DNA of 64,000 nucleotides, from assembly GCF_013389665.1 (NCBI RefSeq), contig NZ_CP058316.1, positions 2,418,001 to 2,482,000 of the forward strand, in the 5' to 3' direction. The notes under the pieces were generated by a model. The model was not told the origin of the DNA. It searched no databases and saw nothing but the letters and a program-made list of their open reading frames with translations. Within the stretch, counting starts at the first letter, position 1. Each line of letters starts with the position of its first letter. Position numbers and translations under genes: made by a program. Positions 37,618 to 64,000 of the stretch are shown piece by piece. The DNA comes from Microbacterium oleivorans. GTDB taxonomy: Bacteria > Actinomycetota > Actinomycetes > Actinomycetales > Microbacteriaceae.

Positions 37618-38922
37618 TCATTCCGAGATGACGACGTCCATCTCGGAGAAGAACTGCGCGACGGCCTCGTCGACGGTGATCGTGCCGAAGTTGAGCTCGA
37701 CGCCCAGTTGGCGGAACTTCTCCTCGAGCGTGCCGTACCCCACGATGGGGGTCGGCGGCGGATCCCCGACGCGGTCGCCCAGCGACTGCTCGTATTCGAC
37801 GATCTCGGCGTCGAGCCCGCTGAGCTCGGCCCCGGAGAGGGCCGTCTCGGATGCCGGCATCCCGCGGTTCAGGCCGAAGACCTCGCCGGTGACCGGAGAG
37901 TTGACGAGGAAGTCGATGAGCGTCGTCGCCGCCGCCGGGTGTTCCGTCCGCGCGGATGCCGCCAGCTGAATGCCCGCGTTGGGGTACATGTCGGCCGCCC
38001 CCGGTGCGCCGGTGGGCGGGGCCTGCAGGTCGAGGGTCGGATAGTCGGGCCCGAGATTGAGGAGGAATCCGGCGCCCAGGCTGTCCCATGAGACGTCCGT
38101 CGCCGTCAGTGCCGAATCGAAGGCGGCTTTCGGCAGTGCCTCCTCGATCCGCTGCTGCGGAGCGACCGCCCCGCTCTCGCGCAGGGAGGCGGTGCTGTTC
38201 CAGAACTCCGCCAGGTCGTCCTCCGTGAACTCGGGCTCACCGTCTGCCGTGAAGAGGTCCTCTCCCGCCGCGCGCCGCTGCAGCTCGAACGACTGGATGC
38301 GGCCTGCATAGTCGGTGCCGCCCCATGCCTCGACACCGGCCGCCACGGCGCGATCGGTGAAGTCGGAGATCCACGTGGCGTACTCGTCCCACGTCCCGCC
38401 GTCCCACGGATCGGCGCCGACGCGCTTGATGAGGGTCGGATTCGACCACATCGACCAGAAGTTCGTCGAGATGGTGACCGCGACCGTGCGCTCGTCGATC
38501 CGACCGGTTGCGAGCACCGGCTCGGCGAGCGGCTCGGTGTCGATGACGTCTCCGAGGTACGGCGTGAGGTCGAGGAGGAGCCCGTTCTGGTCGTACTGGC
38601 GCATGAACGAGGTGCCGAACTGGAAGACGTCCGGCAGCCCGCCGCCCGCCGCCTCCGTCTGACGCTTCTCCCAGAAGGCGGTGTAGTCGAGGAAGGTCGT
38701 CCGCACGGTGATGTTCGGATGCTCGTCCTCGAAAGCCGCCAGCACCTCGTCGTACATCTCCGCTCGGACGTCGTTTCCCCAGAACGCGAAGTCGAGGGTG
38801 ACGGGTTCGTCCGGGTCGAGCGATGCGGCGGGATCGGCCCCGGAAGGGGCGGCGCAGCCCGTGAGGAGGAGCGCGACGGTCCCGAGGGCGGCGCAGGCGG
38901 AGAGCAATGGGCGGTGTCTCAT
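37618..38922 (-). CDS. ABC sugar importer binding lipoprotein A (orphan)
   Basis: A 434-aa extracellular solute-binding protein, family 1 (CUT1 sugar importers). Lipobox LLLTGC with Cys23; the mature part opens VTLDFAFWGNDVRAEMYDE and has FWEKRQTEAAGGGLPDVFQF. It closely resembles the proteins at 50546 and 54578 but has no permease or ATPase beside it, so it probably serves the permeases at 51917-53832. ATG 38922 follows AAGGAA. Its promoter (TTGACA at 39011-39006, minus strand) is overlapped by two operator palindromes and it is divergent from a LacI gene. Confidence 0.93.
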   Translation of the reverse strand: MRHRPLLSACAALGTVALLLTGCAAPSGADPAASLDPDEPVTLDFAFWGNDVRAEMYDEVLAAFEDEHPNITVRTTFLDYTAFWEKRQTEAAGGGLPDVFQFGTSFMRQYDQNGLLLDLTPYLGDVIDTEPLAEPVLATGRIDERTVAVTISTNFWSMWSNPTLIKRVGADPWDGGTWDEYATWISDFTDRAVAAGVEAWGGTDYAGRIQSFELQRRAAGEDLFTADGEPEFTEDDLAEFWNSTASLRESGAVAPQQRIEEALPKAAFDSALTATDVSWDSLGAGFLLNLGPDYPTLDLQAPPTGAPGAADMYPNAGIQLAASARTEHPAAATTLIDFLVNSPVTGEVFGLNRGMPASETALSGAELSGLDAEIVEYEQSLGDRVGDPPPTPIVGYGTLEEKFRQLGVELNFGTITVDEAVAQFFSEMDVVISE

Positions 38923-38969
38923 GATCGGGCCAGTTCCTTTCGTTCGCGGGCGACGTTGCCGACGCGAAA

Positions 38970-39000
38970 GTGATCGATCACACTGTGAGTGATCGATCAC
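38970..39000. promoter_or_regulatory. Tandem LacI-type operators GTGATCGATCAC
   Basis: Two identical 12-base palindromes at 38970-38981 and 38989-39000, centres 19 bases apart, lie between the divergent binding-protein and LacI genes. On the minus strand a perfect -35 TTGACA (39011-39006) stands before them, so the second palindrome fills the promoter spacer and the first lies near the start point. A one-base variant occurs at 40131. Confidence 0.85.
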
Positions 39001-39058
39001 TTTTCTGTCAAGCACTAGATTGATCCCGCGGCCCCGGCGGGCGGCGGGAGGGTGCGGG

Positions 39059-40081
39059 ATGAGCGGTGAGGGCAGACGGCCGGCGACGATCCACGATGTC
39101 GCGACGCGCGCCGCGGTGTCGCACCAGACGGTGTCGCGGTACCTCCGGTTCAACGGTGGGCTGAAGCCTGCCACGAGCGAGCGGATCGCCGCCGCGATCC
39201 AGGAACTCGACTACCGGCCGAACCTCGTCGCCCGATCGATGCGGACGCGTCGATCCGGACGGGTTGCGCTCGTCCTCGCGGGCAGCGGCGTGCACAATCC
39301 GGGACGCCTGCTGGCGGGCGCGTCGCAGGTCGTCCAGGACGCGGGGTACGCCGTCGAGATCCTCACCGTCGACGGCGAGGGCGAGGTGCGCGCCGAGCGG
39401 GTGCGCGAGCTGGTCGGCTCCGGGGCCGTGGAGGGCGTGCTGAGCTTCGCCCCGCTCCCGAGCGATCTGCTCGGCAGCCACCGCGGCGTGACGGTGCTGG
39501 CCTCCTCCGACTACGACGACGCCGGTCGCGTGATCGGTGCGCTGGCCGACAGCTCGCCGGTGGTCGAGCTCGTCGACGGGCTCGTGGACCGCGGCTTCCG
39601 CCGCTTCGCCCACATCACCGGAGACCTCGCGTACGCCTCGGCACGCGCCCGCCGTACGGCGTTCGAGGCGGCGGTCGGCGCTCACGGCATCCGGCCCGAC
39701 TTCGTGCACATCGGAGACTGGTCGGCGGCCTCCGGTGAGGTGGCCGCCGAGCTCGTCGCCGAGGGCGAGCCGATCGCCGTGCTCGCGGCGAACGACGTCG
39801 TCGCGGCCGCGATGGTGCGCGCGCTCGCGCGGCGCGGCATCCCGGTGCCCGAGCGGGTGGCCGTCACCGGCTGGGACGATCTGCCGCTGTCCGGGCTCCT
39901 CTTCCCCTCGCTGACGACCGTCCAGAGCGATTTCGACGTGCTCGGTGCGCACGAGGCCCGTCGCCTCGTGGCGGCGATGTCGGGAACGCCCCTCGACGAC
40001 GGCCCGCCGCAGGGCATGCAGCGCGTGATCTGGCGGGAGTCGACCGGGCCCGACGTCGGTCGCCCGGACCGTCCGGAGTGA
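39059..40081 (+). CDS. LacI family transcriptional regulator A
   Basis: 340 aa. N-terminal helix-turn-helix ATIHDVATRAAVSHQTVSRY and the hinge YRPNLVARSMRTRRSGRV, followed by a periplasmic-binding-like effector domain. HQ in the recognition helix is the LacI-like type. ATG 39059 has GGGAGGG upstream; a -10 TAGATT lies at 39016-39021 right beside the GTGATCGATCAC operators, so it probably represses itself, the divergent binding protein and the next operon. The ligand is likely a sugar taken up by that system. Confidence 0.93.
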   Translation: MSGEGRRPATIHDVATRAAVSHQTVSRYLRFNGGLKPATSERIAAAIQELDYRPNLVARSMRTRRSGRVALVLAGSGVHNPGRLLAGASQVVQDAGYAVEILTVDGEGEVRAERVRELVGSGAVEGVLSFAPLPSDLLGSHRGVTVLASSDYDDAGRVIGALADSSPVVELVDGLVDRGFRRFAHITGDLAYASARARRTAFEAAVGAHGIRPDFVHIGDWSAASGEVAAELVAEGEPIAVLAANDVVAAAMVRALARRGIPVPERVAVTGWDDLPLSGLLFPSLTTVQSDFDVLGAHEARRLVAAMSGTPLDDGPPQGMQRVIWRESTGPDVGRPDRPE

Positions 40082-40142: not shown

Positions 40143-40182
40143 TGTCGATCGAATGCTCATCCACTCCCCGAGAGGGACATCC

Positions 40183-41298
40183 GTGAACACCCTCCTGCGT
40201 GCCGCCATCGTCGGCACCGGTGCCATCGCCCATGCCCACGCCGAGGCCATCCGTGCTCTCGGCTCGCGCGTCGAGCTCGTCGCCGTCGTCGACCTCGACT
40301 CCGAGCGGGCGCGCGCCTTCGCCGAACGCTTCGGCGCCGGTGCGGTGCACGCCGACCTCGACGCGCTGCTGCGCGAGGAGCGCCTCGACCTCGTCCACAT
40401 CTGCACGCCGCCGCAGACCCACGTTCCCCTCGCGGTGCGTGCCCTCCGTGCCGGAACGCCCGCGCTCATCGAGAAGCCGACCGCCCTGAGCCTGGCCGAG
40501 ATGGACGAGCTGGTCGCGGTGTCGCACGAGACCGGCGTGCCCGCGCTCACCGTTTTCCAGCACCGCTTCGGCGCGCCGGCGCAGCGCCTGATGGCCATGC
40601 TCGACGAGGGAGTGCTCGGGCGCCCGCTGGTCGCGGCCTGCGAGACGCTCTGGCACCGAACCCCCGACTACTTCGACCTCCCGTGGCGTGGTCGCTGGGA
40701 CGTCGAGGGAGGCGGCCCGACCATGGGTCACGGCATCCACCAGTTCGACCTGCTGCTCGCGGTGCTCGGTCCCTGGCGGCGGTTGACCGCCTTCGCCGCC
40801 CGCCAGGCGCTCCCCACCGACACCGAGGACGTCTCGCTCGCTGTCGTCGAGTTCGCCAACGGCGCGCTGGCGAACGTCACGAACTCGATCGTCTCTCCGC
40901 GCGAGGTCTCGCGGCTGCGATTCGACTTCGAGTACGCGACCGTCGAGGTCGAGCACCTCTACGGCTACACCGAAGCGGACTGGACCTTCACCGCCGCTCC
41001 CGGGCACGAGGCCCTCGCCGACCGATGGGATGCCGCGTCGGCGGCCGCTCCCGCCGACGAGCGCAGCAGCCACACCTCGCAGCTCGCCGCCGTGCTCGAC
41101 GCGCTCGCCGAGGGACGCACCCCGGGGGTCGCCGCGGAGGAGGCACGGCGCACGCTGGAGTTCGCGGCGGCGACCTACGCGTCCGCCTTCCGTGGCGCGC
41201 CCGTGCTCGCGGGCGAGATCGCCCCCGACGACCCGTTCTACCGGGCCATGGACGGCGGAGCCGTGCCGTGGCCGGCACTGAAGGAGGCCACCGCATGA
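40183..41298 (+). CDS. Gfo/Idh/MocA oxidoreductase A
   Basis: A 371-aa NAD(P)-dependent sugar or cyclitol dehydrogenase. N-terminal Rossmann fold AAIVGTGAIAHAHAEAIRAL, the catalytic-lysine motif IEKPTA, and a C-terminal domain with GGGPTMGHGIHQFDLLLAV including the family histidine. GTG 40183 follows GAGAGGG. The stop overlaps the DUF6807 gene by 4 bases. The same pair of activities is fused into one protein at 46206-48200, so A and the DUF6807 protein very likely act in one step or on one substrate. Confidence 0.93.
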   Translation: MNTLLRAAIVGTGAIAHAHAEAIRALGSRVELVAVVDLDSERARAFAERFGAGAVHADLDALLREERLDLVHICTPPQTHVPLAVRALRAGTPALIEKPTALSLAEMDELVAVSHETGVPALTVFQHRFGAPAQRLMAMLDEGVLGRPLVAACETLWHRTPDYFDLPWRGRWDVEGGGPTMGHGIHQFDLLLAVLGPWRRLTAFAARQALPTDTEDVSLAVVEFANGALANVTNSIVSPREVSRLRFDFEYATVEVEHLYGYTEADWTFTAAPGHEALADRWDAASAAAPADERSSHTSQLAAVLDALAEGRTPGVAAEEARRTLEFAAATYASAFRGAPVLAGEIAPDDPFYRAMDGGAVPWPALKEATA

Positions 41299-42269
41299 CG
41301 CTGTCCATCGTCCACGAGCTCGGCACCGCCCTCGCGGTCCGGGACGACGACGTCGAGCTCTTCCGATACACCTACGAGCCCGACTCGCCGCAGCTGGAGT
41401 CGCCCAAGCCGTTCCTGCATCCGATCCGCACCCGCGCCGGGCGCACGGTGAGCCTGTTCCGCCCGTGGGACCACGTCTGGCACAAGGGGATCGCCTGGTC
41501 GCTGCCGGTTGTGGGGGAGGAGAATTTCTGGGGCGGCCCGACCTACATCCACGGCCGCTTCTACGTGCAGCTCGACAACGACGGCGCCCAGCGCCACGAA
41601 GCGATCACGCGGCTGTCCGTCGACCCCGCAGCCGAGGGCAGCGCCGAGGGGCGGGTCGCCCGGGTCGCGCACGACCTGGAGTGGATCTCGCAGGGCGGAG
41701 TGCGGATGTTCACCGAGCGCCGCACGATCACCGCGCGCATCGTCGACGAAGCGTGCTGGGCGCTGACCTTCGAGACGGAGATGACCAACGTCACCGCCGA
41801 GCCCATCGCGATCGGGTCGCCCACGACCAAGGGACGTGAGAACGCGGGATACGGCGGGCTGTTCTGGCGCGGGCCGCGCTCGTTCACCGGAGGGGTGCTC
41901 GTGACCGCGGACGGCACCGGGTCGGGGGATGACGTGCGGGGGCAGCGCCACGAGTGGATGGGATTCGCCGGGCGCCACGACGACGTCGACGCCTCGTCGC
42001 TCATCGTGATGGTCGACGCCGCCGAGAACCCGCACCACCCGCCGCAGTGGTTCGCGCGCTCCGAGGAGTTCGCGTGCCTCAACCCCGCGCCGTTCTTCAG
42101 CGAGGAGGTCGTCGTGCCCGCAGGCGAGACCGTCGCCTTCCGATACGGGGTCGGGATCGCCGATGCCGACGCCGACGCCGCCGGGGCCGTCGCGACGGCC
42201 GTTCGCTCGGTGCTCGCTGCGCGAGAAGGCGCCGGCACCGCCGCGGCCGGGCGGACGGGTGCGGCGTGA
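41295..42269 (+). CDS. DUF6807 (PmoA-like) protein
   Basis: 324 aa, a beta-sandwich family of unknown activity common beside Gfo/Idh genes. Hallmarks seen: SPKPFLHPIRTRAGRTVS, RPWDHVWHKGIAWSLPVV, ENFWGGPTY, GRENAGYGGLFWRGPRSF and a C-terminal GETVAFRYGVGIAD. The conserved histidines in DHVWHKG suggest metal or sugar binding. No signal peptide, so it is cytoplasmic. Overlaps its neighbours by 4 bases on each side. Possible roles include cleavage of keto-glycosides made by the dehydrogenase; this is inference. Confidence 0.88.
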   Translation: MTLSIVHELGTALAVRDDDVELFRYTYEPDSPQLESPKPFLHPIRTRAGRTVSLFRPWDHVWHKGIAWSLPVVGEENFWGGPTYIHGRFYVQLDNDGAQRHEAITRLSVDPAAEGSAEGRVARVAHDLEWISQGGVRMFTERRTITARIVDEACWALTFETEMTNVTAEPIAIGSPTTKGRENAGYGGLFWRGPRSFTGGVLVTADGTGSGDDVRGQRHEWMGFAGRHDDVDASSLIVMVDAAENPHHPPQWFARSEEFACLNPAPFFSEEVVVPAGETVAFRYGVGIADADADAAGAVATAVRSVLAAREGAGTAAAGRTGAA

Positions 42270-42991
42270 TCGCGCCCTCGAGCTTTCCCGGCGGCACCTC
42301 GGTCACCGACCTCGCCGTCTATGCCGACGCGGCGCCCGACGGCATCTGCGGGGGGACCCCGCACATGCACCTCGCCTCGACCGAGGCCTACATCGTCACC
42401 GCGGGGACCGGCGAGCTGCACACGATCGACGCCCGCGGCTTCCGGCGCACGGCGCTGGCACCGGGAGCCGTGGTCTGGTTCACCCCGGGAACGATCCACC
42501 GCGCCGTGAACACCGGCGACCTTCGGGTCGTCGTCGTCATGAGCAACGCCGGGCTCCCGGAGGCGGGCGACGCCGTGATGACCTTTCCCCCGGAGGTGCT
42601 GGCCGATCCCGCGCGCTACGCGCGGACGGCTCGCATCCCCACCGACGCCGACGAGCGCGACCGCGCCGCCGCCGCGGCCGCCCGCCGCGACGAGGCGGTG
42701 CGTGGATTCGACCGACTCCGGGAACACGTCGAGGCCGGCGACGCCGACGCGCTCGCCGAGTTCCATGCGGCCGCGGTGCGCATCGTCGCGCCGCGGGCCG
42801 CCGGATGGGAGGAGATCGTCCGGCAGCGACCGCTCCGCCTCGCGGAACAGGCGGTCGCGAGCGCCGCGGCCATCGCCCGCGGCGAGGGCGGACACCTCGC
42901 CGCGGCCGCGGTCCACGTGGCCCCGTCGGCGGACGGACCCCGCGGCTTCGGCATGTGCGGGCGGCTGCGCCCCTACGACGTCTCGGACTGA
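42266..42991 (+). CDS. Cupin-domain protein with helical C-terminal extension
   Basis: 241 aa. Residues about 1-105 are a cupin: GTPHMHLASTEAYIVTAGTG gives the H-x-H and E metal ligands and PGAVVWFTPGTIHRAVN the last histidine. The remaining 135 residues are alanine/arginine-rich helices (RDEAVRGFDRLREHVEAG) with no family I can name. A sugar isomerase, epimerase or lyase, or a sensor, is possible. GTG 42266 overlaps the DUF6807 stop; it is the last gene of the LacI A operon. Confidence 0.8.
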   Translation: MIAPSSFPGGTSVTDLAVYADAAPDGICGGTPHMHLASTEAYIVTAGTGELHTIDARGFRRTALAPGAVVWFTPGTIHRAVNTGDLRVVVVMSNAGLPEAGDAVMTFPPEVLADPARYARTARIPTDADERDRAAAAAARRDEAVRGFDRLREHVEAGDADALAEFHAAAVRIVAPRAAGWEEIVRQRPLRLAEQAVASAAAIARGEGGHLAAAAVHVAPSADGPRGFGMCGRLRPYDVSD

Positions 42992-43094: not shown

Positions 43095-44873
43095 GTGGCA
43101 AGGAAACCGCTTTCCCGACCCGCGGACCTGATCGACGGCGCTCACCCCGCTCGATCCGTCCTGCGGCTCTTGGCCCGTCGTCCCGGGCGGATGTCGCTGG
43201 CCGTGCTCGCGTTCACGTTCAAAGAGATCCCGCTGTGGTTCCTCCCGGTCATCACGGCGGCGATCATCGACATCGTCGCCGGTGGCGGCGCGGTGAGCTC
43301 GGTGGTCGGGTGGTTCATCCTCGCCGTGGCGCTGTTGCTGCAGAACTACCCGAACCACATCCTGTACACGCGCAACTTCATGACCGTGGTCCGCGACACC
43401 GGCGCCGACCTGCGCAATGCGCTCGCGGCCCGGCTGCAGAGCCTCTCGATCGGCTACCACTCGCGGGTGAGCTCCTCCATCGTGCAGACCAAGGTCGTAC
43501 GCGACGTCGAGAACGTCGAGCTCATGCTCCAGCAGGTCACGCACCCCCTCCTCTCGGCCACCATGGTGATGATCGGGGCGCTGACGATGACGGCCGTCGC
43601 CGTTCCGCAGTTCCTGCCCGTGTACGCCCTCGCCGTGCCGATCGCCATCGGCATCCGGTACGGCATGCGCAACCGGTCGAGGCAGCGCAACGAGGTCTTC
43701 CGCCGCGAGGTCGAGGTCTTCTCCGCCCGTGTGGGCGAGATGGCCTCCCTCATCCCCGTCACCCGAGCCCACGGCCTCGAAGAGACCGCGGTCACCCGGG
43801 TCAGCACGGGCGCCGAGGGCGTGCGGCGGGCGGGGCTGCACCTCGACATGCTCAACGGCCACGTCGCCTCGATCTCGTGGGTCGCGATGCAGCTGCTGGG
43901 GGTCGGATGCCTCGTCCTGGCCGCGATCTTCTCGCTGACCGGCATCCTTCCCATCTCCCCGGGCGAGGTGGTGCTGCTCTCGACCTACTTCACCCTCCTG
44001 ACGCAGGGGCTGACCCAGCTGCTGATGCTCATCCCGGTGGGAGCCCGCGGTCTGGAATCGGTGCGGTCGATCGCCGAGGTGCTGCAGGAGCCCGACCTCG
44101 AGCAGAACGAGGGCAAGCGCCGCGTCGACGCCGTGACCGGCGACATCCGACTCGAGCGAGCGAGTCACCGCTACGCCGGCGCCGATGACGACGCGCTGCA
44201 CGAGATCGACCTGCACATCCCCGCCGGGCGCACGTACGCCTTCGTGGGCTCGTCGGGCTCGGGCAAATCGACCCTGCTCAACCTCGTTCTCGGCTTCGTC
44301 CGCCCCACCTCGGGCCGCCTCACGATCGACGACGCGGATGTACAGGAACTCGACCTGCGCACGGTGCGCCGGTCGGTGTCGGTCGTGCCGCAGGAGTCGG
44401 TGCTGTTCGAGGGGACCATCCGAGAGAACGTCGCCTACGGGCTGCCCGATGTCACCGACGAGCGCATCGAGCGGGCGCTGCGCGACGCCAACGCGTGGCA
44501 GTTCGTGCAGGAGCAGCCCCGCGGATGGGACACCGTGGTCGGCGAGCGGGGCGCGCGGCTCTCGGGTGGGCAGCGGCAGCGGCTCGCGATCGCCCGTGCG
44601 CTCGTGCGCGACCCGCGCATCCTGCTGCTCGACGAAGCCACCTCGGCGCTCGACCCCGAGTCGGAGGAGCTGGTCAAGGACGCCCTCAGCCGCCTCATGC
44701 GCGGCCGGACGACGCTCGTCGTCGCGCACCGGCTGTCGACCGTTCGCCAGGCCGACCGCATCGTCGTGCTCGAGCGGGGCCGCATCGTCGAGCAGGGCAC
44801 GCACGACGAGCTGCTCGACGCCGCCGGGCGCTACGCGCACCTGCACGCCACGCAGGCCGGTCTCGCCGGCTGA
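43095..44873 (+). CDS. ABC exporter, fused membrane and ATPase domains
   Basis: 592 aa: six transmembrane helices (residues about 35-320) then a full ATPase with GSSGSGKST (Walker A), ARLSGGQRQRLAIARAL (signature) and LLLDEATSALDPESEEL (Walker B). The type I exporter family covers lipids, drugs, peptides and siderophores. It is not related to the importers around it, has its own promoter, and its stop lies 3 bases before the convergent GH43 stop. A single half-transporter gene, so it probably works as a homodimer. Substrate unknown. Confidence 0.92.
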   Translation: MARKPLSRPADLIDGAHPARSVLRLLARRPGRMSLAVLAFTFKEIPLWFLPVITAAIIDIVAGGGAVSSVVGWFILAVALLLQNYPNHILYTRNFMTVVRDTGADLRNALAARLQSLSIGYHSRVSSSIVQTKVVRDVENVELMLQQVTHPLLSATMVMIGALTMTAVAVPQFLPVYALAVPIAIGIRYGMRNRSRQRNEVFRREVEVFSARVGEMASLIPVTRAHGLEETAVTRVSTGAEGVRRAGLHLDMLNGHVASISWVAMQLLGVGCLVLAAIFSLTGILPISPGEVVLLSTYFTLLTQGLTQLLMLIPVGARGLESVRSIAEVLQEPDLEQNEGKRRVDAVTGDIRLERASHRYAGADDDALHEIDLHIPAGRTYAFVGSSGSGKSTLLNLVLGFVRPTSGRLTIDDADVQELDLRTVRRSVSVVPQESVLFEGTIRENVAYGLPDVTDERIERALRDANAWQFVQEQPRGWDTVVGERGARLSGGQRQRLAIARALVRDPRILLLDEATSALDPESEELVKDALSRLMRGRTTLVVAHRLSTVRQADRIVVLERGRIVEQGTHDELLDAAGRYAHLHATQAGLAG

Positions 44874-48200: not shown

Positions 48201-48230
48201 CCGGGCTCCTGACGACTCGTCCATCATGTC

Positions 48231-50443: not shown

Positions 50444-50447
50444 TGCC

Positions 50448-53834: not shown

Positions 53835-54503
53835 ATGTCGACCGACGAGCGGCCGCGCACGCGGCGCGACGAGCGGGCGGCCATCCGCGCCGACCGTACC
53901 GGCAGCGGGCCCACCCGCGACGCCCGTCCGCAGCTGCGCCACCCGGGCGCTGCGGGTGCCTTCGCGCTGCTGGGCGAGGTGCTGATCGTGGGGCTGCTCG
54001 TGACCGTGGTGTCGCTCGCGGTCGTCACCCTGCCCGCGGCGCTCGCCGCCGGCATCCGCCACCTGCGACGTTACGTCGCCGCCGAGGACTCGCGGTTCGC
54101 GCTGTTCTGGGTCGACGTCCGCTCCGGCCTCCTCGGCGGCTCGGCCGTGGGCGCGGCCGCGCTGGTCGCCACGCTCGTCCTGCTCATCGACATCGACCTC
54201 GCCCGCTCGGGGTTCCTCCCCGGCGGCGCCCTCGTCGAGTCGGTCGGCTGGGCCGGGCTCGCCGTCGTGTCGGTCGCGCTGCTCCTGGCCGCGGGGGCCT
54301 GGAGCCCCGAGCTCGGCTGGCGCGGCGCGGTCCGTGCCATCCCCGATGCCGCCCGAGGCGACGTCGTCGGCGTGCTCTACCTCGTCGCGACCGCCGGCTT
54401 CGTCGTCGTGGTCACCTGGGCGCTCCCGCCGTTGTTCCTCGCCGGCATCGGCTGCGCCGCCCTCGCGGTCGTCGCCATCCCCGCCCGCCCGCGCCGGGGC
54501 TGA
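53835..54503 (+). CDS. DUF624 (YesL-like) membrane protein
   Basis: 222 aa; about 45 charged N-terminal residues then four or five helices. FALLGEVLIVGLLVTVVSLA and RYVAAEDSRFALFWVDVRSG fit the DUF624 family, which usually accompanies CUT1 sugar importers. Function unknown, perhaps a transporter accessory. ATG 53835 is 2 bases after the permease stop. The family call is likely but rests on pattern and context. Confidence 0.65.
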   Translation: MSTDERPRTRRDERAAIRADRTGSGPTRDARPQLRHPGAAGAFALLGEVLIVGLLVTVVSLAVVTLPAALAAGIRHLRRYVAAEDSRFALFWVDVRSGLLGGSAVGAAALVATLVLLIDIDLARSGFLPGGALVESVGWAGLAVVSVALLLAAGAWSPELGWRGAVRAIPDAARGDVVGVLYLVATAGFVVVVTWALPPLFLAGIGCAALAVVAIPARPRRG

Positions 54504-55919: not shown

Positions 55920-57443
55920 ATGACCACCCCGAACGCCGTCATCGATCCCCGGTTCGAGATCGCTCGCATCGACCGCCGGGTGTTCGGCGGATTCGTCGAA
56001 CACCTCGGCCGTCACATCTACGACGGCATCCACGAGCCCGGGCATCCGGCAGCGGACGCCGACGGATTCCGAGCCGACGTCATCGAGCTCGTACGCGAGC
56101 TCGGGGTCTCGACCATCCGCTACCCCGGCGGCAACTTCGTGTCGGGGTACCGGTGGGAGGACGGCGTGGGCCCCCGGGAGGATCGACCGCGCCGGCTCGA
56201 CCTCGCGTGGCATTCGACGGAGACCAACGAGGTGGGTCTCCACGAGTTCGCCCGGTGGCTCGAGCTGGTCGGCAGCGATCTGATGCTCGCGGTCAACCTC
56301 GGCACGCGCGGCACGCAGGAGGCCATCGACCTGCTCGAATACGTCAACGCCGACGCCGACACGGCGTGGACGCGCCGACGGGCGGCGAACGGCCGGCCGT
56401 CGCCGTTCGGGGTGGGCATGTGGTGTCTGGGCAACGAGATGGACGGCCCGTGGCAGCTCGGCCACCGCAACGCCGACGACTACGGCAAGCTCGCCTCGCG
56501 CACCGCCAAGGCGATGCGGATGCTCGACCCCGACGTCGAGCTGGTCGTCTGCGGGTCGTCCGGCAGCGGCATGCCGACGTTCGGCTCGTGGGAGCGCACG
56601 GTGCTGGAGCACACCTTCGACGACGTCGACTTCATCTCGTGCCACTCCTACTACCAGGAGCGCTTCGGGAATGCGCAGGAGTTCCTCGCCTCGGGCGTGG
56701 ACATGTCGCGGTTCATCTCCTCGGTCGTCTCGATCGCCGACGCGGTGGCGGCGACGAAGAAGAGCGACAAGCGCATCATGATCTCCTTCGACGAGTGGAA
56801 CGTCTGGTACCTCCACAACGACGAGGGCGGTCAGGACGACAAGCCGCTCGAGGCGGGCTGGCCGGTGGCGCCCCGCCTGCTGGAGGACCGCTATCACGCG
56901 CTGGACGCCGTCGTCTTCGGCGACCTGCTCATCACGCTGCTCCAGCACAGCGATCGCGTGCGATCGGCGTCGCTGGCGCAGCTGGTCAACGTCATCGCGC
57001 CGATCATGACCGAGCCCGGCGGCCCGGCGTGGCGGCAGACCACCTTCTTCCCGTTCGCCCTCACCTCCCGCCTGGCGGGGGAGCGGGCCGTCTCGGTGCC
57101 CGTCTCGTCGGGGTCGTTCGACAGCGAGCGGTTCGGCACGGTCGCCAACGTCAACGCCGTCGCGACCATCGACGGCGAGGGGGTGTCGCTGTTCGTCGTG
57201 AACCGGTCGACGACGGACACCGAGGCCCTGAGCATCGACATCGCCGCGGTCGCGGCATCCTTCGGTCGGGACCTGCGCGTCGCCGAGTCGCACCTGCTCC
57301 ACGAGGACGATCGGTACGCGGCCAACACCCTCGCCGAGCCGGAACGCGTCGGCGTGCGGGCCCTGCCCGACGTCCGCACGCACGAGGGCGAACTGAGCTT
57401 GTCGCTGCCCCCGATCTCCTGGGCGGCCGTCCGGCTGTCCTGA
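55920..57443 (+). CDS. abfA: Alpha-L-arabinofuranosidase, GH51
   Basis: Removes terminal alpha-L-arabinofuranose from arabinan, arabinoxylan or arabinogalactan fragments. 507 aa, the normal length. Acid/base Glu173 in WCLGNEMDG and nucleophile Glu292 in SFDEWNVWY match the spacing of known GH51 enzymes; RRVFGGFVEHLGRHIYDGI and STIRYPGGNFVSGY are typical of the N-terminal part. No signal peptide, so it works in the cytoplasm. ATG 55920 has AGGAGCAG upstream. Co-transcribed with binding protein C. Confidence 0.95.
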   Translation: MTTPNAVIDPRFEIARIDRRVFGGFVEHLGRHIYDGIHEPGHPAADADGFRADVIELVRELGVSTIRYPGGNFVSGYRWEDGVGPREDRPRRLDLAWHSTETNEVGLHEFARWLELVGSDLMLAVNLGTRGTQEAIDLLEYVNADADTAWTRRRAANGRPSPFGVGMWCLGNEMDGPWQLGHRNADDYGKLASRTAKAMRMLDPDVELVVCGSSGSGMPTFGSWERTVLEHTFDDVDFISCHSYYQERFGNAQEFLASGVDMSRFISSVVSIADAVAATKKSDKRIMISFDEWNVWYLHNDEGGQDDKPLEAGWPVAPRLLEDRYHALDAVVFGDLLITLLQHSDRVRSASLAQLVNVIAPIMTEPGGPAWRQTTFFPFALTSRLAGERAVSVPVSSGSFDSERFGTVANVNAVATIDGEGVSLFVVNRSTTDTEALSIDIAAVAASFGRDLRVAESHLLHEDDRYAANTLAEPERVGVRALPDVRTHEGELSLSLPPISWAAVRLS

Positions 57444-57549: not shown

Positions 57550-57564
57550 GGGAAAGCGCTTACC
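57550..57564. promoter_or_regulatory. CcpA/LacI-type operator, site 3
   Basis: GGGAAAGCGCTTACC lies over the expected start of transcription. Its complement GGTAAGCGCTTTCCC differs from site 2 by one base. Confidence 0.75.
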
Positions 57565-57601
57565 ACTCTGGGTGGACAGCGAACGATTCGAAGGACGATC
57601 C

Positions 57602-58804
57602 GTGTCAGAGACGACAACCCTCAGCCCCGCGCCGGCCTCGGCGACCGCCCCGCAGGTCCGCGAGATCGGCATCATCATGAACGGCGTCTCCGGGCGCATG
57701 GGCTATCGCCAGCACCTCGTGCGCTCGATCCTCGCGATCCGCGACCAGGGCGGCATCGAGCTGCCCGACGGCACGAAGGTCACCGTCAAGCCGCTCCTCG
57801 TCGGACGCAGCGAGGCCAAGCTCGCCGAGCTCGCCGCGCGCCACGGCATCGACGACTACACGACCGACCTCGACGCCGCGCTGGCCGATCCCCGCTGGGA
57901 GATCTACGCCGACTTCCTCGTCACGAAGGCGCGCGCCACGGCTCTGCGCAAGGCGATCGCCGCGGGCAAGACCATCTACACCGAGAAGCCCACCGCCGAG
58001 TCGGTGGAAGAGGCGATCGAGCTGGCGAAGCTCGCCGCCGAGGCCGGCGTCAAGACGGGCGTCGTGCACGACAAGCTCTACCTGCCCGGGCTGCAGAAGC
58101 TCAAGCGCCTCATCGACTCGGGCTTCTTCGGCCGCATCCTCTCGGTGCGCGGCGAGTTCGGCTACTGGGTCTTCGAGGGAGACTGGCAGCCCGCGCAGCG
58201 TCCGTCGTGGAACTACCGCGCCGAAGACGGCGGCGGCATCATCGTCGACATGTTCCCGCACTGGAACTACGTGCTCGAGAACCTCTTCGGCGGCGTCAAG
58301 ACCGTCTACGCCCAGGCAGCGGTGCACATCGCCGACCGCTGGGACGAGCAGGGCGAGCACTACACCGCCACGGCAGAGGATGCCGCCTACGGCGTCTTCG
58401 AGCTCGAGGGCGGGGTCGTCGCGCAGATCAACTCGTCGTGGACCGTGCGGGTGAACCGTGACGAGCTCGTGGAGTTCCACGTCGACGGCACCCACGGCTC
58501 GGCGGTCGTGGGCCTGTTCGGCGCGAAGATCCAGCCGCGCAACGCCACCCCGAAGCCGGTGTGGAACCCCGACCTCGAAGACGGGCACGACTACGACGCC
58601 GACTGGCAGAACGTCCCCACCAACGACGTCTTCCTCAACGGCTTCCGCCAGCAGTGGGAGGAGTTCCTCACCTCCTACGTCACCGAGACGCCCTACGAGT
58701 TCGACCTGCTCGCCGGTGCGCGCGGTGTGCAGCTCGCCGAGGCGGGCCTGCGCTCGAGCCGCGAAGGCCGCAAGGTCGAGCTGCCGGTCCTCGCGCTGGA
58801 CTGA
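57602..58804 (+). CDS. Gfo/Idh/MocA oxidoreductase D, atypical nucleotide-binding motif
   Basis: 400 aa. The fingerprint reads GIIMNGVSGRMGYRQHL, nearer to the GRMG motif of dihydrodipicolinate reductase than to the usual G-x-G-x-x-A of Gfo/Idh proteins, and is followed by a 20-residue insert. The rest is standard: TEKPTAESVEEAIELAKLA, VVHDKLYLPGLQKLKRLIDS and a C-terminal barrel wall. GTG 57602 follows GAAGGA. It leads an operon with the DUF993 and isomerase genes under operator site 3. Substrate unknown, likely a sugar or sugar acid. Confidence 0.88.
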   Translation: MSETTTLSPAPASATAPQVREIGIIMNGVSGRMGYRQHLVRSILAIRDQGGIELPDGTKVTVKPLLVGRSEAKLAELAARHGIDDYTTDLDAALADPRWEIYADFLVTKARATALRKAIAAGKTIYTEKPTAESVEEAIELAKLAAEAGVKTGVVHDKLYLPGLQKLKRLIDSGFFGRILSVRGEFGYWVFEGDWQPAQRPSWNYRAEDGGGIIVDMFPHWNYVLENLFGGVKTVYAQAAVHIADRWDEQGEHYTATAEDAAYGVFELEGGVVAQINSSWTVRVNRDELVEFHVDGTHGSAVVGLFGAKIQPRNATPKPVWNPDLEDGHDYDADWQNVPTNDVFLNGFRQQWEEFLTSYVTETPYEFDLLAGARGVQLAEAGLRSSREGRKVELPVLALD

Positions 58805-58818: not shown

Positions 58819-60021
58819 ATGACCGAGCTCACCCTCCTGGGCGCCGACGGCGCGCTGTCGTCCGTCGCCCTCGCAGACGCCCCCGCGTTCACCCGCCCCA
58901 CCGCCCCGCTGCGGAGCCGCGTGGCGTACGCCGCGGCACACGTCGTGCCGCTGACCCACGGCGACAACACCCCGGGCCAGCCGGCGCGGATCGACTGGGA
59001 CGCGACCCTCGGCTTCCGTCGGGCGGTGTACTCCTGGGGCTTGGGCGTCGCTGATGCGATGGACACGGCCCAGCGCAACATGGGCCTCGACGCCGCGGCC
59101 ACGCGCGAGCTCATCGCCCGCTCGGCCGAGGTCGCGCGCGAGGAGGGCGGCTCGGTCGTCGTGGGCGTCAACACCGACCACGTCGAGGCCGAGCACATCT
59201 CGCTCGACGAGGTGATCGACGCGTACAAGAGCCAGCTCGCCTTCACCGAGGAGCAGGGTGCCGGTCCCGTGCTCATGGCCTCGCGCCACCTGGCGCGCGC
59301 CGCGCAGTCGGCCGAGGACTACCGCCACGTGTACCGCGAGGTGCTCGCGTCGGCGTCGGGGCCCGTCGTTCTCCACTGGCTCGGCACCGCGTTCGACCCC
59401 ACCCTGGCGGGATACTTCGGCGCCGCCGACTGGCGGATCGCGGCCGATGTGCTCGTGGAGATCATCGGCGAGAACGTCGAGAAGGTCGCGGGCGTGAAGA
59501 TGAGCCTGCTGGATGCCGCCTCCGAGGTCTCGGTGCGGGAGCGGCTCCCCGAGGGCGTACGCATGTTCACCGGCGACGACTTCAACTACGTCGGCCTCAT
59601 CGGTGGCGCCGATGTACCGCAGGCGCGTCAGCCCGACCGGGATGCCGCCTCGTCGCGGCAGCACTCCGACGCGCTCCTCGGCGCGTTCGCGGCGATCACC
59701 CCGGTCGCCTCGGCGGCCATCCAGGCCCTCGACGCCGGCGACGCGGAACGCTATCTGTCGATCCTCGAGCCGACGGAGGAGCTCAGCCGCCAGGTGTTCG
59801 CCGCCCCGACCTTCTACTACAAGACGGGCGTCGCCTTCCTGTCGTGGCTCAACGGCCATCAGGCCGCCTTCCAGATGGTGGGCGGACTACACTCCGCGCG
59901 CAGCCTGCCCCACCTCTCGCGCATCGTCGAGCTCGCCAACGCGGCGTCGGCTCTCGAGGACCCCGAGCTCGCCGCCGACCGCTGGCACGGCATGCTCCGT
60001 CTGAACGGGCTCGGCGCATGA
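58819..60021 (+). CDS. DUF993 protein, DHDPS-like aldolase fold
   Basis: 400 aa. Barrel segments: VVVGVNTDHVEAEHISLDEV, GPVVLHWLGTAFDP, then VAGVKMSLLDA with Lys227 where dihydrodipicolinate synthase relatives have the Schiff-base lysine, and FTGDDFNYVGLIGGAD like their glycine-rich loop. A class I aldolase or lyase cleaving a keto-sugar acid is a reasonable guess, but the family has no established activity that I know. ATG 58819, 14 bases after oxidoreductase D. It overlaps the isomerase gene by 4 bases. Confidence 0.85.
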   Translation: MTELTLLGADGALSSVALADAPAFTRPTAPLRSRVAYAAAHVVPLTHGDNTPGQPARIDWDATLGFRRAVYSWGLGVADAMDTAQRNMGLDAAATRELIARSAEVAREEGGSVVVGVNTDHVEAEHISLDEVIDAYKSQLAFTEEQGAGPVLMASRHLARAAQSAEDYRHVYREVLASASGPVVLHWLGTAFDPTLAGYFGAADWRIAADVLVEIIGENVEKVAGVKMSLLDAASEVSVRERLPEGVRMFTGDDFNYVGLIGGADVPQARQPDRDAASSRQHSDALLGAFAAITPVASAAIQALDAGDAERYLSILEPTEELSRQVFAAPTFYYKTGVAFLSWLNGHQAAFQMVGGLHSARSLPHLSRIVELANAASALEDPELAADRWHGMLRLNGLGA

Positions 60022-60902
60022 GCGCGGACCCGCGGCTGTCGATCAACCAGGCCACGATCAAGTACGCCGATCTCGCCACGGCCCTCCGCGTGACCGCGGC
60101 AGCGGGCGTCGAGGCGATCGGGCTCTGGCGCGAACCGGTGCAGGAGGTCGGGCTCGCCACGGCGTCCGCCATGCTCTCGGACTCGGGCCTGCGCTTCACG
60201 ACGCACTGCCGCGCGGGCTTCTTCACGATGCCCGAGGGCCCGGCCCGCCGCGCCTCCCTCGACGACAACCGCGTCGCCATCGACGAGGCGGCCACCCTCG
60301 CGGCGGCCGGCGCCGCGGGATCCACCGCGATCCTGGTGCTCGTCGCCGGGGGCCTCCCCGAGGGGTCGCGTGACATCGTCGGCGCCCGCGAGCTGGTCCG
60401 CGACGCGATCGGCGAGCTCGCGCCGCACGCGAAGGCCGCGGGCGTGACGCTGGCGATCGAGCCGCTGCATCCGATGTTCGCCTCCGACCGGTGTGTCGTC
60501 TCGACGCTCGGGCAGGCCCTCGACATCGCGGCGGACTTCGAGCCGGAGGTCGTCGGCGCCACCGTCGACACGTTCCACATCTTCTGGGATCCCGACGTCC
60601 TGCCCGCCATCGAGCGCGCGGGCCGCGAGCGTCGCATCGCCACCTATCAGGTGTGCGACTGGAAGACGCCGCTGCCGGCGGACGTGCTGCTGAGCCGGCA
60701 CTACCCGGGCGACGGGGTCATCGACTTCGCGACCCTGACCCGTGCGGTCGAGGCGACGGGGTACGACCGCGACATCGAGGTCGAGATCTTCAACGCCGAC
60801 ATCTGGGCGACGGATGCCGCCGCCGTGGTGGAGCGCACCGCCGCGGCCTTCGGCGCCGTCGTGTCGCCGCACCTCGCGGCTGCGCGAGCGGCCACCGCCT
60901 AG
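60018..60902 (+). CDS. Sugar phosphate isomerase/epimerase family (AP endonuclease 2 fold)
   Basis: A 294-aa TIM-barrel metalloprotein: LAIEPLHPMFASDRCVVS supplies a metal-binding Glu, GATVDTFHIFWDP the Asp and His ligands, and DIEVEIFN the last Glu. Relatives isomerise or dehydrate keto-sugars and inosose, or cleave 3-keto-glycosides. ATG 60018 overlaps the DUF993 stop. Together with oxidoreductase D and DUF993 it forms a recurring three-gene set. Confidence 0.87.
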   Translation: MSADPRLSINQATIKYADLATALRVTAAAGVEAIGLWREPVQEVGLATASAMLSDSGLRFTTHCRAGFFTMPEGPARRASLDDNRVAIDEAATLAAAGAAGSTAILVLVAGGLPEGSRDIVGARELVRDAIGELAPHAKAAGVTLAIEPLHPMFASDRCVVSTLGQALDIAADFEPEVVGATVDTFHIFWDPDVLPAIERAGRERRIATYQVCDWKTPLPADVLLSRHYPGDGVIDFATLTRAVEATGYDRDIEVEIFNADIWATDAAAVVERTAAAFGAVVSPHLAAARAATA

Positions 60903-60911: not shown

Positions 60912-61946
60912 GTGGGACAGACGGGGATGTCGCCGCGTGGGTCGGCCACGCTGCACGACGTGGCACGCGAGGCCGGGGTGTCGCTGGCGACGGCATCGCG
61001 CGCCCTCAACGGATCGACACGCAAGGTGGCCGACGCCTATCGGGAGCGCGTCGAACAGGCAGCCGCCCGCCTCGGCTACACCGCGAACCTGTCGGCCCAG
61101 GCCACCGCCCGCGGCACCTCGGCCATCGTCGCGCTGCTGGTCGCCGACATCGCCGACCCGTATTTCGGCCAGCTCGCCGCCGGTGTCGCGCGCGGCGCGG
61201 ACGAGGCCGGCCTCGTCGTCACCGTCGCGATCACCGAGCGCGATCCCGCCCGTGAGCTGCGCCTCGTGCGGGCGCTGCGCGGGCAGCGTCCCCGCGGCAT
61301 CATCCTGGCCGCCTCGCGCACCTCGCGCGAGATGACCCCCGAGCTGGCGGCCGAGCTCGACCTCATCTCCGCCGGCGGCGGCACCGTCGTGGCCCTCGGC
61401 CCGGGTGCCCCCGGGGTGCGCAGCATCGCGATCGACAACCGGGGCGGGGCGCACGCGCTCGGGGCTGCGCTGGCCGAGCGGGGCTACCGCGACGCCGTCG
61501 TGCTCGCCGCCGCCGAGGGCGTCGTCACCAGCGACGACCGACTCGCCGGCTTCGCCGCGGGGTTCACCGCCGGTGGCGGCGCCGAGCCGCGCGTGTACCG
61601 CGGCGGGTTCAGTCGTGAGTCGGGCGCGGAATCCATGACGGCCGCGCTCGCCGACGGCGTCGCCCCGGGAACGGTGGTGTTCGGCATCAGCGACGTCGTC
61701 GCGATCGGCGCGCTGACGGCGGTGCGGGCAGCCGGCCGCGAGCCGGGTGCCGACATCGCCCTCGCCGGCTTCGACGACATCCCCACCGGGCGCGACGTCA
61801 CCCCGCCGCTCACGACCGTGCGCGTCCCCCTGCCCGACGTCGGTTACCGCGCGCTCCGCGCGGCGGTCGACGGCGATGCCGGTGCCGACGCGTCGTCGCT
61901 GCCGCTCGACGTGCTGGTGCGCGAGAGCACCCCTGCGCGCCCGTGA
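60912..61946 (+). CDS. LacI family transcriptional regulator B
   Basis: 344 aa. Helix-turn-helix ATLHDVAREAGVSLATASRA, hinge YTANLSAQATARGTSAIVA, then the effector-binding domain. The LA pair before the TxSR part of the recognition helix is the type seen in CcpA-like proteins, which read AAGCGCTT palindromes, so it is the best candidate for sites 48231, 50448 and 57550. TAGACT (60900-60905) lies 6 bases before GTG 60912, suggesting a leaderless transcript. Its stop overlaps glycerate kinase. Confidence 0.92.
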   Translation: MGQTGMSPRGSATLHDVAREAGVSLATASRALNGSTRKVADAYRERVEQAAARLGYTANLSAQATARGTSAIVALLVADIADPYFGQLAAGVARGADEAGLVVTVAITERDPARELRLVRALRGQRPRGIILAASRTSREMTPELAAELDLISAGGGTVVALGPGAPGVRSIAIDNRGGAHALGAALAERGYRDAVVLAAAEGVVTSDDRLAGFAAGFTAGGGAEPRVYRGGFSRESGAESMTAALADGVAPGTVVFGISDVVAIGALTAVRAAGREPGADIALAGFDDIPTGRDVTPPLTTVRVPLPDVGYRALRAAVDGDAGADASSLPLDVLVRESTPARP

Positions 61947-63106
61947 CCGGCACGTCCCGCGTCGTCGTCGCGATCGACAGCTTCAAGGGCTCGATCGGGG
62001 CCGCCGACGCTGCGCGCTCGATCGCCGCGGGCTGGCATGCGGTCGACCCCGAGGCGGCCGTCGAGCTGCGCCCGATGGCGGACGGCGGCGAGGGCACCCT
62101 CGAGGCGTTCGCCGCCGCGGTGCCCGGCGCGCGCCGGATGCCCGTCGAGGTCATCGGTCCCGCCGGCACCGCGGTGGCGGCATCCTGGCTGCTCCTGCCC
62201 GCCGGTCACGGCGGCGCGGCGGGAACGGTCGGCGTCGTGGAGCTCGCCTCGACCTCGGGCATCGAGCTGCTCGGCGCCCGGCGTCGCGGCCTCGACGCCG
62301 ACACGAGCGGGTTCGGCCAGGCCATCGCCGCCGCGCTCGACGCCGGCGTGGACCGCCTCGTCCTGGGCATCGGGTCGAGCTCGTCGACGGACGGCGGGAT
62401 CGGGATGCTGCGCGCCCTCGGCGCCCGCGTCACCGACGCCACCGGTCATGAGGTCGCACCCGGGGTCCGCGGGCTGTCCGCCATCGCCGACGTGGACCTG
62501 TCGGCGCTGCGACCGCTCCCGGCGGGGGGAGCGGTCGTGCTCAGCGACGTCTCGAACCCGCTCCTGGGAGAGCGCGGCGCCGCCGCCGTGTTCGGCCCGC
62601 AGAAGGGCCTCGAGCCGGCCGGCGTCGCCGATGCCGAGGCGGGATTGGCGCGGTGGAGCGCGAGCGTGCCGGACGGCGCGTCGCTGGCGGCGACACCGGG
62701 CGCCGGCGCGGCCGGCGGCACCGGGTTCGGACTGCTCGCCTGGGGCGCGCGATTGACGCCCGGGGCGCGTGAGGTCGCCGAGCTCATCGGCCTGGCCGAG
62801 GCCGTCGCCGAGGCGGAGCTGGTGATCACCGGCGAGGGATCGTTCGACGGCCAGTCCGCCGCCGGCAAGGTGCCGGCCTTCGTCGCCGAGCTCGCCGCAC
62901 GCGCGGGCGCGCCGGCGGCTCTGGTCGCCGGCCGCATCGCCGCCGACGCGGACACCGCCGCGTTCGCGGCATCCGTCTCGCTCACCGAGCGGGCCGGGAG
63001 CGCCGCGGCGTCGCTGGCCGAACCCGCCCGGTGGTTGCATGAGGCCGGAGCGATGCTGGCGCAGCGACAACGGCGCGACGGCGCGGCGTCGTCGAACGCG
63101 CCGTGA
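61943..63106 (+). CDS. Glycerate kinase, GarK/GlxK family
   Basis: 387 aa. N-terminal VVAIDSFKGSIGAADAARSI, then MADGGEGTLEAFAAA and LGIGSSSSTDGGIGMLRALG, all marks of the glycerate kinase I family, which makes 2-phosphoglycerate (or 3-) from D-glycerate. GTG 61943 overlaps the LacI B stop. Its place in this operon suggests that glycerate is an end product of the pathway encoded around it. Confidence 0.93.
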   Translation: MTGTSRVVVAIDSFKGSIGAADAARSIAAGWHAVDPEAAVELRPMADGGEGTLEAFAAAVPGARRMPVEVIGPAGTAVAASWLLLPAGHGGAAGTVGVVELASTSGIELLGARRRGLDADTSGFGQAIAAALDAGVDRLVLGIGSSSSTDGGIGMLRALGARVTDATGHEVAPGVRGLSAIADVDLSALRPLPAGGAVVLSDVSNPLLGERGAAAVFGPQKGLEPAGVADAEAGLARWSASVPDGASLAATPGAGAAGGTGFGLLAWGARLTPGAREVAELIGLAEAVAEAELVITGEGSFDGQSAAGKVPAFVAELAARAGAPAALVAGRIAADADTAAFAASVSLTERAGSAAASLAEPARWLHEAGAMLAQRQRRDGAASSNAP

Positions 63107-64000
63107 CGGGCGAGGCGGGCCCGGTGCGCTGGGCGGTGCTCGGGCCGGGCCGGATCGCCGAGAGCTTCGTCGCCGGCCTGCGCGAGACCCGGACCGGGGT
63201 GCTCGCGGGCATCGGCAGCTCCGATCCCAACCGCGCGCGCGCCGTCGCCGATCGTCTCGGTGCCCAGCACGCCGGACGCTACGACGACATGATCGGCCGG
63301 GACGACGTCGACGCCGTGTACGTCTCGAGCATCCACCCGGCGCATCTCGAGCTGGCCGAGGCCGCCCTCCGTGCCGGCCGAGCCGTGCTGTGCGAGAAGC
63401 CGCTGACCCTGACGGCTGCGGACACGGCCCATCTGATCGCGACCGCGACCGCGGTCGGCGTTCCCCTCGTGGAGGCGTACAAGAACCGCTTCTCGCCGTT
63501 CGCGCGGGCATTGGAGTCCGCCGTGGCGCTCGGCGGCATCGGCGGCGGCCTGCGCCTGCGCGCCTCGTTCGGGTTCCGGGCCGAGCCCCGGGAGGGACGT
63601 CTGTTCGATCCGGCACTCGGCGGCGGTGCTCTGCTGGATGTGGGCGGATACCCGCTCGCTCTCGCCGTGCAGGTGGCCGAGGCCGCCGGTGTGGCGCTCG
63701 GCGCTCTCCGGATCGGCGACGTCGCGGGGCGGATCGGGCCCACCGGCGTCGACGAGCACGCCCGGGCCGTCGTCATCGCTCCCGGGTTCACCGCGCACGT
63801 CGAGACCTCGATCCGTTCCGAGCTGCCGCGCTCGGCCGAGGTCGTCGGCGACCGGGGCCGTGTCGTCCTGCCCGACGCGTGGGGCTCGCGGCTCGCCTCG
63901 GCCGGCGAGCTGCGGATCGTCGACGACGCGGGGGAGCGGGTCGAGCGGCCCGCCGTGGTGAATCCGTTCGCCGCCGAGGCCGACGCCGTGGCGGAGCTGC
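63103..64000 (+). CDS. Gfo/Idh/MocA oxidoreductase E (3' end cut by window edge)
   Basis: 299 codons visible from GTG 63103, which overlaps the glycerate kinase stop. WAVLGPGRIAESFVAGLRET, SSIHPAHLELAEAALRAG and LCEKPLTLTAADTAHLIAT with the catalytic lysine, then VEAYKNRFSPF. It resembles the dimeric dihydrodiol / D-xylose dehydrogenase type in ending its visible part with VVNPFAAEADAVAEL. Fifth oxidoreductase of the island. Confidence 0.88.
   Translation, partial: MTGEAGPVRWAVLGPGRIAESFVAGLRETRTGVLAGIGSSDPNRARAVADRLGAQHAGRYDDMIGRDDVDAVYVSSIHPAHLELAEAALRAGRAVLCEKPLTLTAADTAHLIATATAVGVPLVEAYKNRFSPFARALESAVALGGIGGGLRLRASFGFRAEPREGRLFDPALGGGALLDVGGYPLALAVQVAEAAGVALGALRIGDVAGRIGPTGVDEHARAVVIAPGFTAHVETSIRSELPRSAEVVGDRGRVVLPDAWGSRLASAGELRIVDDAGERVERPAVVNPFAAEADAVAEL

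Follow-up and report, generated by a model that had tools for sequence, protein, structure and literature searches.

Relation to described oxidative sugar pathways

The systems closest to the locus described here are the levoglucosan pathway, the β-elimination operons for O- and C-glycosides, a sugar cluster on plasmid pAO1 and a gene region of Sinorhizobium meliloti. The locus, which encodes five Gfo/Idh dehydrogenases, two DUF6807 domains and a DUF993 protein, lies at the end of a 64,000-nucleotide stretch of Microbacterium oleivorans DNA (bases 2418001-2482000 of a single-contig genome of 3.35 Mb), hereafter called the window. The dehydrogenase of the levoglucosan pathway is a Gfo/Idh enzyme. 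The abstract of PMC7676230 describes this pathway (LgdA-LgdB1-LgdB2-LgdC) as an oxidation, an elimination and a hydration followed by a reduction that yields glucose; as there, our locus combines dehydrogenases with neighbouring partner genes for a putative oxidative action but, unlike the pathway described, it has a single isomerase-like gene and also encodes a glycerate kinase and a DHDPS-fold protein. The O-/C-glycoside operons (AtOGE, PuCGE) likewise contain a Gfo gene and sugar-isomerase-like TIM barrels, and DUF993, DUF6807 and glycerate kinase are not named in the passages of PMC10628242 that concern them.

In S. meliloti, the same three gene types as here, DUF993, AP_endonuc_2 and oxidoreductase, are numbered as neighbours (SMc04130-SMc04133). 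SMc04132 corresponds to PDB entry 4dnh and SMc04130 to 3ju2; the former is listed as "uncharacterized" in the relevant part of PMC12542648, and the region is likewise without an assigned function. The pAO1 cluster of Paenarthrobacter nicotinovorans (NZ_CP089294.1) encodes a Gfo enzyme 62% identical to our GfoQ, followed by DUF993 (50%) and glycerate kinase (38%), and adjoins a sugar importer of the ATP-binding cassette (ABC) type and an aldehyde dehydrogenase gene. It differs in that it has no isomerase match and no DUF6807 within the stretch compared, and in the presence of a GMC oxidoreductase as well as the aldehyde dehydrogenase. We take its Gfo enzyme to be the D-xylose-preferring NAD(P) dehydrogenase, and an oxidative xylose pathway on pAO1 is reportedly the subject of a 2013 title by Mihasan. 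Two classical routes also resemble the locus: the non-phosphorylating Entner-Doudoroff pathway, with its sugar dehydrogenase, DHDPS-type aldolase and glycerate kinase, and the inositol (Iol) route, with Gfo, AP_endonuc_2 dehydratase and aldolase. Unlike in these routes, the open reading frames scanned here yielded neither a sugar-acid dehydratase nor a sugar kinase.

Our preferred reading, to which we give a probability of roughly 45%, is that this is one locus of two regulons, through which arabinose-decorated plant oligosaccharides would be imported and partly oxidised.

Gene families, predicted folds and conserved residues

Gene families were called by Pfam scans of chosen open reading frames. 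Both DUF6807 domains (PF14100; 238.1 and 194.8 versus 27 bits) and DUF993 (PF06187; 537.3 versus 24 bits) scored over the Pfam cut-off, and the scans bore out the inventory of an earlier, sequence-only reading of this DNA: five Gfo/Idh enzymes, two DUF6807 domains, DUF993, a cupin, an AP_endonuc_2 protein, two LacI regulators and three glycosidases, which the scans assign to GH51 (one) and GH43 (two) (Table 1). Missing from that inventory were the glycerate kinase, two more solute-binding proteins and an ABC protein of the exporter type. Its single importer is right as regards the permeases, which form one pair, but three solute-binding proteins are present (SBPa, SBPk and SBPo). The operons overlap as it had stated, with genes that overlap or abut and, in relatives, median gaps of 3 bases between Gfo and DUF993, -3 between DUF993 and the isomerase, and -3 between DUF6807 and the cupin.

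The structure model of DUF6807 has the galactose-mutarotase fold (super-sandwich). No PDB chain matched this family by sequence, or by profile up to E 10, and the literature searched mentions DUF6807 only as the newest DUF number. Its partners and the fusion carry conserved residues: E107, K108, H196 and D199 of GfoC are conserved in 88 sequences, the cupin metal motif (H33, H35, E40, H78) is invariant in 72, and K105, H196, D430, H431, W433 and H434 of the Gfo-DUF6807 fusion are invariant across the 10 fusions aligned. The most likely role of DUF6807 is to assist the sugar dehydrogenase that is its fusion partner or coupled neighbour, either by providing an anomer or by acting on the keto product.

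DUF993 was modelled as a TIM barrel of the DHDPS class-I-aldolase type. Enzymes of this class carry their Schiff-base lysine on strand 6, and a candidate counterpart in DUF993 is K227, which is invariant in 76 sequences and lies on strand 223-229, by our count the sixth of the barrel. DHDPS also carries a tyrosine on strand 5; at the presumed equivalent position, DUF993 would have a histidine. As for DUF6807, the literature searched yielded no paper giving DUF993 a function, in line with the sequence-only reading, in which the DUF993 and DUF6807/cupin branches had no assigned step.

That reading had also drawn on C-glycoside and 3-keto-glycoside chemistry. In a pathway of this type (levoglucosan, O-/C-glycoside), a Gfo enzyme would oxidise C3, the AP_endonuc_2 protein or DUF6807 would carry out β-elimination, the cupin would hydrate, a second Gfo enzyme would reduce, and free sugar would leave the pathway. 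We consider it unlikely for this locus, although one of the Gfo enzymes may be an untyped glycoside 3-dehydrogenase. When compared with the NCBIfam models for glycoside 3-dehydrogenase, disaccharide 3-dehydrogenase and levoglucosan dehydrogenase (NF058561, NF058563, NF052479), the five Gfo enzymes, GfoV being scanned only up to the window end, were either unmatched or scored 19 to 76 bits against cut-offs of 650 to 750; with the IolG equivalog model TIGR04380 they reached at most 102 versus 355 bits. Moreover, a single AP_endonuc_2 protein was found among the scanned reading frames, whereas the Agrobacterium tumefaciens operon, as published, has both an eliminase and a hydratase TIM barrel, and the published pathway needs neither an aldolase nor a glycerate kinase; the DUF993 branch here encodes an aldolase-fold protein and a glycerate kinase. 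The 3-keto-glycoside chemistry of the earlier reading is therefore doubtful, while its account of linkage and branches was right, as described below.

Co-occurrence and linkage in other genomes

The comparison group consisted of 249 genomes of the same family, probably Microbacteriaceae. DUF6807 was found in 53 of these, one of which, a weak match, was dropped to leave 52 over the cut-off; DUF993 was found in 72, and both families in 47 (p ~1e-26). The two lay on the same contig in 35 of these 47 genomes and at most 25 kb apart in 23, across 14 genera. Because related genomes enter the genome-level counts as if they were independent, the count by genus is safer: DUF993 was present in 24 out of the 26 DUF6807 genera versus 37 out of 85 genera (p ~8e-10). 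The sequence-only reading had suggested searching other actinobacteria for such co-occurrence, and DUF993, DUF6807 and Gfo/Idh genes do co-occur and cluster there more than expected by chance.

These data bear on the simplest alternative, an ordinary arabino-oligosaccharide locus whose arabinofuranosidases and importer supply araBAD, with Gfo, DUF6807 and DUF993 genes as unrelated neighbours. araA, which serves as a control for a sugar-eating lifestyle, was found in 159 of the 249 genomes, including all 52 DUF6807 genomes, and is present in this genome (C1:2577631), which speaks for such a locus. Nevertheless, the pairing persisted among araA-positive genomes alone (DUF993 in 47 of the 52 DUF6807 genomes versus 67 of the 159 overall; p ~1e-18), the modules share operator-like sites, and the linkage within 25 kb recurs in the 14 genera and extends beyond the family, to loci of Demequina (L224) and Nocardiopsis (L243). 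We therefore regard unrelated neighbours as very improbable.

Gene neighbourhoods were compared in two sets of loci, in which gene types were assigned by best match to window proteins, so that closely paralogous genes (LacI, Gfo, permeases) may carry the wrong name. The first set comprised 65 same-family stretches around DUF993, from 64 of the 72 DUF993 genomes (eight genomes were left out), and contained GfoQ in 59 stretches, the isomerase in 63, a LacI2-like regulator in 52, and glycerate kinase and a DUF6807 gene in 18 each. The second, named set comprised the best 80 of at least 509 confirmed DUF6807 loci in named actinobacteria; 61 of these had a GfoC-like gene and 60 had the cupin, which stood directly after DUF6807 in 53. 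The glycerate kinase is single-copy in our genome (one match), and among the 37 same-contig pairs of DUF993 and glycerate kinase genes listed for the family, the two lay within 5 kb in at least 15 and within 25 kb in at least 23. An Actinotalea DUF6807 locus (L236) had GfoQ and the isomerase, with no DUF993 match. Both families are large, 7842 of 8000 scored candidates matching DUF993 and 2247 of 7996 matching DUF6807.

Predicted operators and regulons

With at most one mismatch, AGTGATCGNTCACT matched five sites in the genome, whereas its reversed control had no genome match. The gap between SBPa and LacI1 holds two of these sites (38969-39001), a third precedes GfoC (40130-40143), and the remaining two lie elsewhere. 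A second palindrome, similar to GGTAARCGCTTTCC, preceded GfoQ in 50 of 64 loci of relatives, compared with 1.9 in shuffled controls, which preserve base composition only. A position weight matrix (PWM) was built from these 50 palindromes and applied with a score threshold of 9. It identified four sites in the window, all at gene starts (Table 1) and none in the first 37 kb, and two sites, both in L162, on 79 kb from elsewhere in the genome (L002, L162, L163, L164). In the named set, PWM sites were found upstream of SBPk in 10 out of 19 cases, GH51 in 5 out of 8, cassette-type Gfo (see below) in 8 out of 11, permease 1 in 13 out of 45 and GfoC in 17 out of 61; in the other set, they preceded the fusion (4/9), SBPk (4/7), GfoI (3/8) and DUF6807 (6/26). 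The count before GfoQ in the first set (55/63) is circular, the matrix having been made from 50 of these regions.

Two operator types of this kind fit one branch per LacI regulator, as the sequence-only reading had supposed, and would place the fusion and GfoI within the DUF993 regulon. From gene position, we infer that LacI1 binds AGTGATCGNTCACT and that LacI2 binds the GGTAARCGCTTTCC-like site; other LacI proteins may use similar sites. The exporter-type ABC gene, which lies between the two branches, has an operator-like site overlapping its first codons, and an M. thalli gene with the same site is 95% identical, which makes its membership of the regulon tentative. Homologues of this gene were found at 5 out of 65 DUF993 stretches.

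The sites at cassette-type Gfo genes are relevant to a further explanation, namely that the DUF6807 modules ready (methyl)glucuronosyl fragments of arabinogalactan or glucuronoxylan for a KdgD-type uronate route. A cassette of epimerase, DHDPS and MR_MLE genes occurs at 4 of the 80 named DUF6807 loci, with its Gfo gene (L165, L173) or without it (L219, L220), and at unnamed ones. The one DHDPS protein tested (L147) was nearest to 5-dehydro-4-deoxyglucarate dehydratase (189.6 bits, the next match scoring 79), and plant-polysaccharide neighbours are found in relatives, with a GH42 cluster at 13 of the 80 loci and GH10 at L142. On the other hand, the cassette was absent from 76 of the 80 loci within the stretch compared, the tested epimerase showed only a weak resemblance to uronate dehydrogenase (38 bits, with 49.9 for its best match), and of the 11 loci whose cassette-type Gfo was scanned, the rest of the cassette was present only in L165 and L173. 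The cassette of this genome is also 1.2 Mb distant, so that a uronate route seems to us rather improbable here. This distant cassette has the order Gfo, epimerase, then DHDPS and MR_MLE, and occupies L162 6469-8810 (C1:1274468-1276809) and the genes that follow; in M. thalli (L165), among others, such a cassette adjoins the DUF6807 module.

Proposed pathway

From the genes, predicted folds, operator-like sites and conserved linkage we infer a scheme of reactions, their order and their substrates. Oligosaccharides would enter through the ABC permeases and dedicated binding proteins, GH51 and the two GH43 enzymes would trim off arabinofuranosyl groups, and free L-arabinose would exit through the classical araA route encoded elsewhere in the genome; since that route is present, the sugar that is oxidised could be one other than arabinose. 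Both the glycosidases and the genes found nearby in relatives suggest a material of arabinogalactan or arabinan type that carries uronate side groups. In the LacI1 branch, GfoC would oxidise a sugar, DUF6807 would act on its anomeric or keto form, and the metal cupin would isomerise or otherwise process the product. In the LacI2 branch, GfoI and the fusion may treat a second sugar likewise, and GfoQ would oxidise to a keto-sugar, which the AP_endonuc_2 protein would dehydrate or isomerise and DUF993 would cleave as an aldolase, with glycerate kinase returning a three-carbon product to glycolysis. Such a sequence, running from the Gfo-made keto-sugar through the AP_endonuc_2 step to DUF993 cleavage into three-carbon units and glycerate kinase, and coupled through LacI to Gfo-linked, mutarotase-fold DUF6807 proteins, would be an undescribed non-phosphorylating pathway; we advance it tentatively, at somewhat less than even odds, with DUF993 as its putative DHDPS-fold aldolase.

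Several observations weigh against this scheme. The aldolase chemistry of DUF993 is suggested by its fold and one lysine, and a shared fold shows no function; the protein had no PF00701 match in the Pfam scan and no usable profile match with a five-row alignment of KdgD-type DHDPS proteins. Most genomes of the family encode a glycerate kinase (207 of 249), and none was listed near DUF993 in two rhizobial plasmid stretches (L008 and L012, from S. meliloti and R. daejeonense), where the neighbours include genes for a CoA-transferase, an enoyl-CoA hydratase and an aldehyde dehydrogenase. These belong to eight annotated plasmid stretches that we compared, of which six surround DUF993 and the other two DUF6807. 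Glycerate may thus not be the universal product, and rhizobial DUF993 perhaps feeds a different downstream route.

Regarding regulation, the LacI2-type palindrome resembles general LacI-family operators, a PWM site precedes only 10 of 81 DUF6807 and 1 of 8 GfoI genes in the named set, and AAGCGCTTNCC alone gave 14 genome matches versus 12 for its reversed control, an unspecific result for which the PWM was used instead. As for linkage, GH51 was near DUF993 in 1 of the 65 same-family stretches, DUF993 lay within about 10 kb in only 4 of the 80 named DUF6807 loci, and 25 of the 72 DUF993 genomes had no DUF6807 over the cut-off. Plasmid records, with 147 for DUF993 and 5 for DUF6807, likewise speak against a fixed partnership. 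By these gene distributions, the two branches appear separable and not parts of a fixed two-branch pathway.

Gene layout and surroundings

Table 1. Genes and predicted operators of the locus (window positions; scores in bits are Pfam scores unless another model or PDB entry is named)
Feature	Position	Strand	Evidence and remarks
SBPa, solute-binding protein, divergent from LacI1	37618..38922	-	SBP_bac_1 70.9 bits; LacI1-type operators (predicted) in divergent gap
LacI1 regulator	39059..40081	+	LacI 57.2 bits, Peripla_BP_3 106.9 bits
GfoC, Gfo/Idh/MocA dehydrogenase	40153..41298	+	95.5 bits
DUF6807 protein, mutarotase fold (predicted)	41295..42269	+	238.1 bits in 40131-42269 frame
Cupin with full metal motif	42266..42991	+	Cupin_2 36.9 bits
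Exporter-type ABC protein, membership tentative	43095..44873	+	ABC_tran 123.7 bits; operator-like site at 43101, possibly coding
GH43a glycosidase	44877..46178	-	57.6 bits
Gfo/Idh-DUF6807 fusion	46206..48227	-	GFO_IDH_MocA 59.6 bits, DUF6807 194.8 bits; true start maybe 48200
LacI2-type operator (predicted) between fusion and GfoI	48230..48245		PWM score 14.1
GfoI dehydrogenase	48301..49392	+	91.7 bits
GH43b glycosidase	49389..50363	+	32.7 bits in longer frame, cut-off 32.2 (marginal); start inferred from translation
LacI2-type operator (predicted) before importer operon	50447..50462		PWM score 19.1
SBPk, solute-binding protein	50465..51844	+	78.8 bits; true start maybe 50546
Permease 1	51917..52909	+	60.5 bits
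Permease 2	52906..53832	+	61.8 bits in longer frame
Small membrane protein in importer operon	53835..54503	+	Weakly MusI-like, 19.7 bits versus cut-off 160
SBPo, solute-binding protein	54578..55861	+	85.2 bits
GH51 alpha-L-arabinofuranosidase	55920..57443	+	Alpha-L-AF_C (C-terminal domain) 131.9 bits
LacI2-type operator (predicted) before Gfo-DUF993	57550..57565		PWM score 26.2
GfoQ, Gfo/Idh enzyme of DUF993 trio	57611..58804	+	C3 domain 84.1 bits; 3oqb 491 bits; start inferred
DUF993, DHDPS-fold aldolase-like protein (predicted fold)	58819..60021	+	537.3 bits
AP_endonuc_2 isomerase/dehydratase-like protein	60018..60902	+	122.6 bits; 3ju2 229.6 bits
LacI2 regulator	60927..61946	+	LacI 59.4 bits
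Glycerate kinase	61943..63106	+	343 bits; TIGR00045 295.6 bits versus cut-off 168.45
GfoV dehydrogenase	63103..64000	+	76.1 bits; 101 bases beyond window end, whole gene L002:3103-4101

The small MusI-like membrane protein of the importer operon has a homologue in 15 of the 80 named DUF6807 loci. Just ahead of the locus, a DUF222 protein is encoded on the minus strand (34932-36374), and an rRNA operon lies further upstream (16S at 12586-14107, 23S at 14483-17588, and 5S from 17689 to at least 17800); no tRNA was found in the window by ARAGORN. Past the window end, L002 9006-17007 (C1:2487006-2495007) encodes a DUF2264 protein, two permeases accompanied by another binding protein, and an FAA_hydrolase domain. 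DUF2264 also adjoins the DUF993 operon on a Glaciihabitans plasmid.

Biological meaning

The classes of chemistry considered here are known, and it is to DUF993 and DUF6807 that no paper in the literature searched assigns a function. Both families are widespread, and this one locus joins them through operator-like sites, with a predicted fold for each. Two families without a function thereby become open to biochemical assay, with arabinose- and uronate-bearing plant glycans as the candidate substrate class. In this soil-type bacterium, a large gene set is apparently switched by two repressors and seems to serve the uptake of plant-wall sugar chains, some of whose sugars would then be oxidised and cleaved at a carbon-carbon bond. 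This suggests that some actinobacteria possess an oxidative branch alongside classical arabinose breakdown.

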